From an uncultured Clostridia bacterium (lineage in GTDB: Bacteria > Bacillota > Clostridia > Oscillospirales > Acutalibacteraceae), in assembly GCA_946187325.1 (NCBI GenBank), contig CAMHQC010000007.1, forward strand, positions 1 through 64,000: a stretch of DNA of 64,000 nt, given 5' to 3'. Shown one piece after another: positions 12,965 to 55,136 of this stretch (the first letter of the stretch is position 1; each line of letters starts with the position of its first letter). The position numbers and the translations under genes are program-made. The notes beneath the pieces were generated by a model. The model was not told where the DNA came from, made no database searches, and was given only the letters and a program-made list of their open reading frames with translations.

Positions 12965-13054
12965 AGTATTACCTCCATTAGCATTGTAACACCGTATTAA
13001 AAATAATACAATAATATTCCGCTAAAATTCAGGAGAATTTCAGGTGTTTATCAC

Positions 13055-13651
13055 TTAATAATTCCTTACGAGCGAGATAACCTTGCCCAATAAAATCACG
13101 TCATCTACAATAATCGGCTCGAAGTCGTCGTTTTCGGGCTGAAGGCGGAAATGTCCGTTTTCCTTATAAAAGCGTTTAACGGTAGCGCTGTCCTCTACCA
13201 GAGCGACAACAATTTCGCCGTTTTCGGCTACGGGAGTACGATGAACAATAAGGATATCGTCGGGTAAAATTCCCGCGTTAATCATACTTTCGCCCTGAAC
13301 TCTGAGCGCGAAAAGCTCCTTACCGCGCGAGAGGTTTTTGTCTACCGTTACGTAGGATTCGATATCCTCGATAGCGACTATAGGATTACCCGCGGCAACG
13401 TTGCCGAGCACGGGAACGCTCTGAGCGGTAGTTTCGCCGACAATGCGGATACAGCGGTTAAGCCCCGCGTCACGCTCGATAAGACCGTGTTCCTCCAAGG
13501 CTTTGAGGTAAAGATGAGCCGTAGAAGTGGATTTAAGACCTACGTCCTTACATATCTCGCGAACCGAGGGAACCCGGCTCTCTCTGGAACATTCTACAAG
13601 ATAGTCGTAAACAGCCTGCTGTTTTTTAGTAATGGGCTTTTGCTTTTTCAT
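13055..13651 (-). CDS. lexA: LexA repressor
   Basis: MKKQKPITKKQQAVYDYL; cleavage region GNVAAGNPI; GESMINAGILPDD and VKRFYKE. Confidence 0.93.
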   Translation of the reverse strand: MKKQKPITKKQQAVYDYLVECSRESRVPSVREICKDVGLKSTSTAHLYLKALEEHGLIERDAGLNRCIRIVGETTAQSVPVLGNVAAGNPIVAIEDIESYVTVDKNLSRGKELFALRVQGESMINAGILPDDILIVHRTPVAENGEIVVALVEDSATVKRFYKENGHFRLQPENDDFEPIIVDDVILLGKVISLVRNY

Positions 13652-13821
13652 AAGGATACCTCCTATTATAGATAAAACAATGATATCATAAAAACCGCAC
13701 TGTGTCAAACGTTTGTTTATATTTTTTACATATAAATTTTATACGGAAAGATTGTTAAATTTTCAACACACTTTCAGGACGTTTTCACAAAACCGTCATA
13801 TTTACATGTTTTAATATAAGC

Positions 13822-13953
13822 GTACTCAATAGCAGAACCGCAACTGCTGAGTACAGTTCTACCCCTCCTTGTAAGTCGACTTAGAGACTTACATTTTTGT
13901 ACCCCTCATTTTCTTTTTTTAGAACAAGAAAGGCACGCTTTTAGCGTGCCTTT
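13822..13953 (+). ncRNA. Candidate small regulatory RNA with two C-rich motifs and intrinsic terminator
   Basis: Hairpin 13822-13854, ACCCCTCC 13861-13868, hairpin 13870-13893, ACCCCTCA 13901-13908, terminator 13929-13953; no ORF. Confidence 0.55.
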
Positions 13954-13984
13954 CGCTTTTTGCGGTGTGTTATAATGTCAGGCT

Positions 13985-14064
13985 GTCATTCTGAGCGGAG
14001 CGAATTCGAAGAATCTTGTACCCCTTATTAAAGGGAACGAGATTATTCCTTCGCTCAATATGAC
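13985..14064. repeat. MITE-like palindromic element B
   Basis: gtcattctgagcg...cgctcaatatgac inverted ends. Confidence 0.75.
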
Positions 14065-14126
14065 AAGCTGCCTACCGTTTCGCCGTTGGCGAAAGGATAG
14101 TGCAAATACAATAATATAGTTGCATC

Positions 14127-14320
14127 GGAACGGCACGGAGACCGTTCCCTACTATGTCGAAGTAAGTATCTGCTGAAAACTGACTGCTGTTTCAGAGTCA
14201 CCTTAATATCGTAGGGAATGGGAGACTCCTCCGTTGGAGGAGATGTCGCGAATGCGACAGAGGAGGTGCCGTCTCCGGCTGAGGAACTGTCCCATTCCGG
14301 GCCGAGTTGTCCTATAAAGC
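14127..14320. repeat. Composite nested inverted-repeat element
   Basis: cggaacggcacggagaccgttccctac opposed to gtagggaatgggagac...gtctcc...tcccattccgg, with internal TCCTCCgttGGAGGA and TGTCGCgaatGCGACA hairpins. Confidence 0.65.
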
Positions 14321-14521
14321 AGAACTGTCCTTACGCCAACGGCGTAAATACCAAAGGCAAGTTTTCCGAAGAATTATAATAATTTTTCGACCGCGCTCAA
14401 TATGACAAGTTTCAGACTGCAGATTTTTCTTACTAAAAAATGCGGATTTGATATTGGCTAAACGCTTAATTTATAGTATAATAAATACGTATGTATAAAT
14501 ATAAGCGAATTGGAGGTAATT

Positions 14522-32952: not shown

Positions 32953-32982
32953 AAGGGCAAAGGGCTTAGGATTTAGTAACTT

Positions 32983-52775: not shown

Positions 52776-52951
52776 ATGCTGCTCCTTAACAAAACTGATT
52801 TTATTATAGAACAAATCCCGCTTTAAATCAAATTAATCTTTTAAAAACCTTGCAAATATGGTATATTAATCATATATATTTAAAAAATCCGACATATAGT
52901 TTTCACATTAGGATTTTAAAATTGTCTTATAATCAACCGGGAGGGGACAAT

Positions 52952-53629
52952 ATGAGTAAACTTTTAGTAGTAGACGACGAGGTGAGAATCCGCGAGCTTA
53001 TCCGCAAGTACGCGGAATTTGAGGGACATACCGTAGAGGAAGCGGGCGACGGTATGCAGGCTATCGAAGTATGCCGTAAAAACACCTACGATTTAATTAT
53101 AATGGACGTTATGATGCCCGAGCTGGACGGATTTTCGGCGTGCCGCGAGATTAGAAAATTCTCCGATACTCCAGTAATTATGCTCTCGGCGAGAGGCGAG
53201 GAGTACGATAAAATCCACGGCTTCGAGCTCGGCTCGGACGACTACGTTGTAAAGCCTTTCTCCCCGAAAGAGCTTATGATGAGGGTGAACGCCGTTATCA
53301 AACGCTCCGAGGGTAAAAACGCTCAGGCGGAAAAGGATGTATTCACCTATGAGGGACTTACCGTAGATTTTTCCGCCAGAATCGTTACTATCGACGGCAA
53401 ACGCGCCGAAATGACCCCGAAGGAGTACGAGCTGTTCTTCTATATGGTTAAGAATAAGGGCTTGGCGCTTACGAGAGAAAAGCTTATCTCTGAGGTGTGG
53501 GGATACGATTTCTTCGGCGACGAGCGCACGCTCGATACCCATATTAAGCTTCTCAGAAAATCGCTCGGCGATTACAGTAAATGTATAGTTACGCTTCGAG
53601 GGGTAGGTTATCGTTTTGAGACAAACTGA
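52952..53629 (+). CDS. OmpR/PhoB-family response regulator
   Basis: LLVVDDEVRIRELI, DLIIMDVMMPELDG, winged-helix C-terminus. Confidence 0.95.
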   Translation: MSKLLVVDDEVRIRELIRKYAEFEGHTVEEAGDGMQAIEVCRKNTYDLIIMDVMMPELDGFSACREIRKFSDTPVIMLSARGEEYDKIHGFELGSDDYVVKPFSPKELMMRVNAVIKRSEGKNAQAEKDVFTYEGLTVDFSARIVTIDGKRAEMTPKEYELFFYMVKNKGLALTREKLISEVWGYDFFGDERTLDTHIKLLRKSLGDYSKCIVTLRGVGYRFETN

Positions 53630-55136
53630 TAAAATCTCACGCTGGAGAAGCCTTCCGCTAAGGTACAAGCTGAGTATTTATTTTATCGCGTTTTCCGCGG
53701 TTATGCTCGTGTTTTTGTGGATATTCCAGATAGCGTTTCTCGATACCTGCTATACGCTTATACGACAGGCTCAGGTTCAGCGCTGCGCTTCACAGATTAC
53801 CTCGAGCATAAAGAGCGGCGAGAATGTCGATTCGGCTATTAGCAGTATCTCCCGCGAGAATGAGATGAGCGTATTTGTATACGACTCGAGCGACGAAATT
53901 ATGACGAAGGAATACGGAAGCGAGTTTAACAACCCGTCGGGACTTCGTGATATAAATATGCACAACGTGTATTCGTATTATAAGCTCGCCGAGGATAACG
54001 GCGGTCAGTATATAACCACCTCGTCCGTTAATGAGGAAAAGGTGGTTTTTTCCGACGTGGATAATGTCGAGGCTTCCGCGGACGAGCTTTCGGAGTTTCA
54101 TCCCGACTTTAAAATGAAGGAACATCATAAACACGCCCAGAATCTCATCTACGCCGAGATTTTAAAGCTTAATAGCGGTAACGAGCGATTTGTACTCGTA
54201 ACGGCTCTGATTACGCCTGTCGATTCGGTAATAAATACAATCCGGGTTCAGCTTATACTCGTGAGCTTTGTGTTTATTATTTTCGCTATTATTCTCGCGT
54301 TTATCGTATCGCGGCGTATTTCAAGACCGCTGGTCGAGGTTAACACGACGATTAAACAGCTCGCCCGCAGAAATTATAACGTAGAGTTCAACAGCCGGGG
54401 CTACCTCGAGGTTAACGAGCTCAGCGATACGCTGAATATAACCCGCCGTGAGCTTCAGAAAACCGATAATCTCCGCCAGGAGCTTATCGCGAATATTTCC
54501 CACGATCTGAGAACTCCGCTGACTATGATTACGGGCTACGGCGAGGTAATGCGCGACCTTCCGGGTGAGAACACTCCCGAAAACGTCCAGGTTATTATCG
54601 ACGAGGCTAACAGGCTTACGAACCTCGTAAACGATATGCTCGATTTATCTAAGCTCCATTCGGGAGCTATAGAGCTCGAAACCGAGCAGTTCAGCTTAAC
54701 CGACGAGATTAACGATATTTTCCAAAGATACACCAAGCTCAGAGAGCAAGAGGGTTACAGTATAACCTTTAAGTACGATAAAAACGTGTATGTAAACGCC
54801 GACCGAATTAAGCTCGGGCAGGTTATCTATAACTTTATCAACAACGCGATTAACCATTGCGGAGAGGATAAGACCGTTATTGTTACTCAGAAATCTACCG
54901 ATAAGCGTGTGCGTATCGAGGTAGAGGATCACGGCGAGGGTATCCCCGAGGATAAGCTCGAGTATATATGGGATAGATACTACAAGGTCGATAAAGAGCA
55001 TAAACGCGGAGTTATCGGCACAGGTCTCGGACTTTCGATTGTAAAGAATATTCTCGACCTCCACGGCGCGCGCTACGGAGTAAAGAGTAAAGTCGGCTCG
55101 GGTTCGACATTCTGGTTCGAGATGGATAGAATTTAA
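53616..55136 (+). CDS. Sensor histidine kinase
   Basis: ELIANISHDLRTPLTMITGYGEVMRD, GTGLGLSIVKNILDLHG. Confidence 0.95.
   Translation: MRQTDKISRWRSLPLRYKLSIYFIAFSAVMLVFLWIFQIAFLDTCYTLIRQAQVQRCASQITSSIKSGENVDSAISSISRENEMSVFVYDSSDEIMTKEYGSEFNNPSGLRDINMHNVYSYYKLAEDNGGQYITTSSVNEEKVVFSDVDNVEASADELSEFHPDFKMKEHHKHAQNLIYAEILKLNSGNERFVLVTALITPVDSVINTIRVQLILVSFVFIIFAIILAFIVSRRISRPLVEVNTTIKQLARRNYNVEFNSRGYLEVNELSDTLNITRRELQKTDNLRQELIANISHDLRTPLTMITGYGEVMRDLPGENTPENVQVIIDEANRLTNLVNDMLDLSKLHSGAIELETEQFSLTDEINDIFQRYTKLREQEGYSITFKYDKNVYVNADRIKLGQVIYNFINNAINHCGEDKTVIVTQKSTDKRVRIEVEDHGEGIPEDKLEYIWDRYYKVDKEHKRGVIGTGLGLSIVKNILDLHGARYGVKSKVGSGSTFWFEMDRI

Follow-up and report, generated by a model that had tools for sequence, protein, structure and literature searches.

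We have identified an sRNA family of the Acutalibacteraceae that is undescribed, is not in Rfam and is of a known functional kind. Its member in the window (the whole 64,000-nucleotide stretch of DNA analyzed here) lies at 13822-13961 on the forward strand and has in its promoter a repeat array that, in the same genome, also precedes the gene of an HtrA/Do-family protease. This promoter switch common to the sRNA and HtrA makes it probable that the sRNA acts in a stress response by keeping mRNAs of other genes from being translated. Our overall reading, to which we assign a probability of roughly 0.68, is that of an htrA-linked secretion or envelope-stress sRNA with an OmpR-type activator, whose linkers would block translation of several mRNAs.

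The Ruminococcus bromii group includes important gut starch degraders, and no described sRNA of this group was found in the libraries and literature searched. The sRNA is found almost throughout the genus, and with it we can name a candidate regulator, a likely co-regulated gene and linkers that lend themselves to testing. It would carry over to the Oscillospirales the combination of htrA control with anti-Shine-Dalgarno (anti-SD) sRNAs known from streptococcal CiaRH, and it suggests a recurrent design in which protein quality control is coupled to a translational brake.

Anatomy of the sRNA gene

We regard it as almost certain that window positions 13822-13961 (+) are a real RNA gene. The layout consists of three hairpins, the last being the terminator at the end, with two unpaired C-rich linkers between them. 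Its predicted fold has an energy of -46.5 kcal/mol, as against -22.4 +/- 3.4 kcal/mol for 200 shuffled sequences, none of which equaled it (z = -7.0). The gene and its surroundings comprise the following features:

13055..13651 (-), lexA, the divergent neighbor (TIGR00498 above cut-off)
13822..13961 (+), sRNA gene, predicted transcript of ~140 nt (covariance model and fold z of -7.0)
13822..13854 (+), hairpin 1, the 5' stem (GTACTC...GAGTAC) with conserved loop ACCGCAA (fold and covariation)
13856..13869 (+), C-rich linker 1, GTTCTACCCCTCCT / GUUCUACCCCUCCU, anti-SD; family consensus GUUCUACCCUCCUC
13870..13893 (+), hairpin 2, stem arms TGTAAGTC/GACTTACA, limited to the window's genus and absent in other genera
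13897..13912 (+), C-rich linker 2, TTGTACCCCTCATTTT / UUGUACCCCUCAUUUU, near-invariant in relatives
13928..13961 (+), intrinsic terminator, 12-bp stem (13928-13954) and T-rich tail; stem letters vary, pairing is kept

The first-pass annotation had placed the hairpins, linkers and terminator where we find them, and its statement that the stretch lacks an ORF holds at a threshold of 60 amino acids; the 10 bp that it gave for the terminator stem were corrected to 12. No Rfam family matched the sRNA stretch or six distant homologues at the gathering score, only chance-level matches appeared for the sRNA at E values up to 5, and BLAST of the stretch against phage gave no match. A long-range GUUCUA/UAGAAC helix in the fold of the window was rejected, as it displays zero covariation and fails in many relatives. 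Intergenic repeats (CGCTCAATATGACAAG, TTGTACCCCTTATT) are located 3' of the sRNA at window positions 14000-14420 and also near 32981.

Conservation and covariation

When 35 other species of the genus were searched by BLAST, 19 proved to have the sRNA stretch. We sampled 100 genomes from GTDB Ruminococcus_E, which is the R. bromii group; covariance model R1 matched 94 of them and also more than 10 other genera of the family. A sequence-only core model, run against 396 genomes of the order, matched 33 of them, with rare members coming from two further families, and its matches in a class-wide sample were confined to the window's family; order-level matches L076-L088 were discarded as chance terminator matches. 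Relatives of the sRNA are spread through the Acutalibacteraceae, with sporadic occurrences in two other Oscillospirales families. Named contigs of the group are those of Ruminococcus bromii, Ruminococcus sp. FMBCY1, Clostridium sporosphaeroides, Anaeromassilibacillus, Pseudoruminococcus and Faecalispora, and we take the group with the sRNA to be the Acutalibacteraceae of GTDB.

Chance structure is ruled out because homologues conserve the pairing: in 20 homologues, 96.3% of cells in the named structure are paired, compared to only 24-42% when the partner is slid by 1-3 columns. Both sides have changed in 21 of 31 pairs, and the covariation score of these 20 sequences is 0.525 versus 0.267 in shuffles. 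Compensatory changes are clearest in hairpin 2 (8/8 pairs), followed by hairpin 3, the terminator (10/12). On the + strand, 48 G-U cells stand against 8 A-C cells, as expected if this strand is the RNA. RNAalifold missed hairpin 1 because its stem length varies among relatives, and model R2 therefore scores sequence only; single-sequence folds recover the hairpin, and of 40 sequences folded, nearly all give the family-wide form a similar structure.

In the alignment of relatives, the promoter is conserved, the stems are variable and the linkers are almost invariant. Linker 1 contains GTTCTACCCTCCT in 138 of 157 distinct members, with the window form GTTCTACCCCTCC in 10, while ACCCCTCA of linker 2 occurs in 139 of 157. 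Family members have in common a 5' hairpin whose loop is CCGCA, a terminator and the core GUUCUACCCUCCUC..ACCCCUCA. In other genera only a few nucleotides separate the two C-rich motifs; in the window's genus, hairpin 2 intervenes. A core of CAU-GUUCUA-CCCUCC, which would complement a start codon together with an SD sequence, is present in 35 of the 67 members without hairpin 2; a CAU 5' of the anti-SD occurs in 3 of the 85 with hairpin 2 and is absent from the window. The first-pass proposal of a free-standing sRNA, to be checked with a covariance model of relatives, is thereby strongly supported: hairpins and C-rich motifs are conserved in related genomes, and the gene has its own promoter and terminator, covariation from genus to family, changing downstream genes and + strand G-U pairs.

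A promoter array common to the sRNA and htrA

The start of transcription is predicted at about 13822, and two elements precede it:

13761..13804 (+), four 11-bp direct repeats (TTTCAACACAC TTTCAGGACGT TTTCACAAAAC CGTCATATTTA), in register in 18 aligned relatives
13810..13815 (+), -10 element TTTAAT; the last TTTCA repeat begins 16 nt upstream of it; GTTTAATA is nearly invariant

The TTTCA repeats form a putative binding array for an OmpR-type response regulator, with a CssR-like box. The reported CssR box of Bacillus is TTTTCACA, and CssRS controls htrA/htrB there (PMC6749698). When the whole own genome was searched with up to two mismatches to the sRNA box, only the promoters of the sRNA and of the HtrA/Do-family protease were found, and htrA emerged unsought from this genome-wide search. 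The array is located before htrA in 11 of 11 genus orthologues tested, at a spacing to the -10 element equal to that of the sRNA promoter; none of the second htrA paralogues retrieved from the genus has it. A matrix of the sRNA promoter, run over 3.2 million positions, yielded 13 non-sRNA matches, 12 of which are htrA promoters. Conversely, a matrix of the htrA promoter scoring above 13 in 2.58 Mb found only htrA, the sRNA, a two-component promoter at 52.9 kb of the window and a second sRNA-like gene; about 0.5 Mb from the own genome and 0.4 Mb from another genus were chosen blind to the box, while the remainder was picked for htrA or the sRNA; the 2.58 Mb are composed of these parts and are thus enriched in both loci by selection. 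Shared control of the sRNA and htrA in the window's genus is, in our judgment, very likely. The box shared with htrA, as in CssRS-type regulation, was found in the window's genus only: outside it, the sRNA promoter carries TTCATA-N5-TTAACA at a greater distance from the -10 element, and htrA there is without such a box.

The second sRNA-like gene with an htrA-type box lies on contig C1 of the own genome at ~113365-113546 (L352:13365-13546; G000:C1:113365). It has a hairpin (AGTAAAG-AGAA-CTTTACT), a CU-rich TTTTCCTTCCTAT, a strong terminator and a fold z of -6.1, and is without an ORF. A related TTTCA array occurs in one relative between lexA and the membrane-protein gene on the divergent side (L131:2920-2980), and a weaker form of this lexA-side array is visible at window positions 13024-13058.

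A candidate two-component regulator

The sRNA promoter points to an OmpR-type, htrA-linked regulator, which the first-pass annotation had missed. The window contains a candidate operon:

52868..52922 (+), two-component operon promoter with a degenerate box copy, GACATATAGTTTTCACATTAGG (htrA-matrix match)
52952..53629 (+), OmpR-family response regulator, candidate activator (Pfam Response_reg and Trans_reg_C)
53616..55136 (+), sensor histidine kinase encoded in this operon, with an uncertain start codon (Pfam HisKA and HATPase_c)

When an htrA matrix derived solely from relatives was run on 492 kb of the own genome, the operon's promoter came second. In several relatives an orthologue of the regulator is located no more than ~8 kb from the sRNA, and the two-component system is near the sRNA in at least five. 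NCBIfam yielded only sub-cut-off OmpR-family matches for the regulator, establishing no orthology to CssR or CiaR. Judged by these sequence features, the regulator at 52952-53629 is somewhat more probable than not as the activator of the sRNA.

Proposed mode of action and targets

We propose that misfolded exported proteins or envelope damage would be the signal. An OmpR-type regulator, most likely that at 52952-53629 with its kinase, would bind the four 11-bp TTTCA repeats upstream of the -10 element and switch on htrA, its own operon and the sRNA. The 5' hairpin and the terminator would protect the ~140-nt RNA, and the exposed C-rich linkers could pair with the SD regions of several mRNAs, blocking translation initiation and so lowering the load of new protein.

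From the anatomy of the sRNA and by analogy with known Gram-positive sRNAs, anti-SD pairing is the most likely mode in which the linkers act, with odds of some three to one in its favor; both are near-invariant and complementary to SD sequences. The translational block is something we infer, because a duplex target screen of 381 genes did not clearly outperform shuffled linkers and no perfect linker-complement site away from the sRNA was found in 24 genomes. In this screen, linker 1 formed duplexes of -14 kcal/mol or lower with 8.4% of start regions (shuffled mean 6.5%, maximum 8.4%), and linker 2 fell below its own shuffles. The full complement of SD plus start codon in another genus likewise displayed no enrichment over shuffled spacers. 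The start regions of the kinase and the regulator (window 53616 and 52952) rank 4th and 7th of the 381 linker 1 duplexes, which suggests, as a lead only, feedback of the sRNA on their mRNA; this pairing is not kept in relatives.

On a more speculative note, the data are compatible with a CiaRH-like regulon of gut clostridia, in which one two-component system would drive its own expression along with htrA and two or more unrelated anti-SD sRNAs, and in which the main sRNA, with two anti-SD motifs that are adjacent in sister genera and split by a hairpin in the R. bromii group, would also repress its own regulator/kinase mRNA. We consider this fuller scheme doubtful.

Alternative explanations

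The linkers of an htrA-co-regulated RNA might instead bind a protein, such as an RNA-binding regulator or a ribosomal protein, with the RNA serving as a sponge or scaffold. Such a role would suit the conservation of linker 2, whose 16 bases are identical in 65 distinct members and exceed the needs of an anti-SD seed, as well as the lack of an enriched target and the restriction of full linker complements to the sRNA locus. We nonetheless think it unlikely, given that both linkers are SD complements like those of LhrC, RsaE and FsrA (PMC4132741). The start codon plus SD complement in about half of the members without hairpin 2 also speaks for mRNA pairing. Control by PhoP, as part of the phosphate-starvation response, is less probable still, and for the window's genus we discarded it. 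It would draw on the 11-bp TTCATA-N5-TTAACA repeats of promoters outside the genus, which resemble Gram-positive PhoP boxes. In the genus, PstS occurs in 9 of 24 genomes, and its promoters, where seen, carry 11-bp repeats of TTTTACA, not TTTCAYA; the own genome has no PstS match, yet its sRNA box is intact, and the genus box is common to the sRNA and htrA.

The first-pass annotation had also raised a possible SOS dependence, which would come through the neighbor lexA. Among the 140 distinct loci whose flanks were long enough, the sRNA is indeed divergent from lexA at 105 (median gap 246 nt); the other 35 were not scored as divergent, some of them solely because our script placed the gene elsewhere. 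A conserved LexA-type palindrome (AACAAATGTTTG in relatives, CAAACGTTTG in the window) sits at the lexA -35 element (13706-13715), and a search of the sRNA promoter for a LexA-type box found none, leaving the SOS link unsupported and very improbable. Least credible, to the point of being negligible, is a cis-acting leader of the downstream gene or an artefact derived from a repeat or small ORF. Although rnfC is downstream in the window, it is not conserved at this place in relatives, whose downstream genes differ in family and strand, and the terminator is strong. In other genera AUGUUCUACCC could begin a short ORF, but most members in the genus lack the AUG, and small indels put the frame out of register. 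The concern that one C-rich motif might stem from a repeat, since TTGTACCCCT recurs in two repeats outside the sRNA (14016 and 32981), is answered by TACCCCTCA, which occurs once in the window, and by the 16-mer TTGTACCCCTCATTTT, which is identical in the 65 distinct relatives.

Relation to known systems

With its own promoter and terminator, its free-standing position and its conserved unpaired SD-complementary motifs, the gene resembles C-rich anti-SD trans-acting sRNAs. By comparison, it is best read as working like the csRNAs of streptococci or LhrC of Listeria, which are anti-SD sRNAs under two-component control (PMC3091779, PMC4132741), while belonging to neither. The csRNAs (CiaRH) are under OmpR-family two-component control, as predicted for the sRNA here, with 11-bp direct repeats that likewise lie ~16 nt upstream of the -10 element, and their regulon includes htrA, as is likely here. 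They also share with it an unpaired anti-SD stretch between stem-loops followed by a terminator, and they sometimes occur in several copies (PMC3091779). They differ in their box (TTTAAG-N5-TTTAAG rather than TTTCAYA, at the same 11-bp period) and in the nonamer [A/C]UCCUAAA[A/C], which is absent from our sRNA alignments, whereas the sRNA here has two C-rich motifs; the CAU 5' of the csRNA anti-SD is present in the sRNA of other genera, not in the window.

LhrC1-5 (LisRK) are similar in their envelope-stress two-component control, which is proposed for the sRNA here, and in UCCC motifs that pair with the SD (PMC4132741). Their motifs are also in loops, whereas those of the sRNA here are in linkers between hairpins, and Rfam searches gave no sequence relation between the two. 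RsaE/RoxS, FsrA and CsfG likewise have C-rich unpaired anti-SD motifs but differ in that the sRNA here has no Rfam match to them, and their regulators differ from the candidate here. The CssRS regulon of Bacillus has TTTTCACA-type boxes before htrA and an autoregulated two-component system (PMC6749698); no sRNA member of it was found in the literature searched. LhrC is multicopy in some strains (PMC4132741), and tandem copies of the sRNA occur in one relative here: a single-contig 2.44-Mb genome of the genus contains two full copies and one degenerate copy within ~2.3 kb (~1080836-1083167), recalling the multicopy csRNAs and LhrC.
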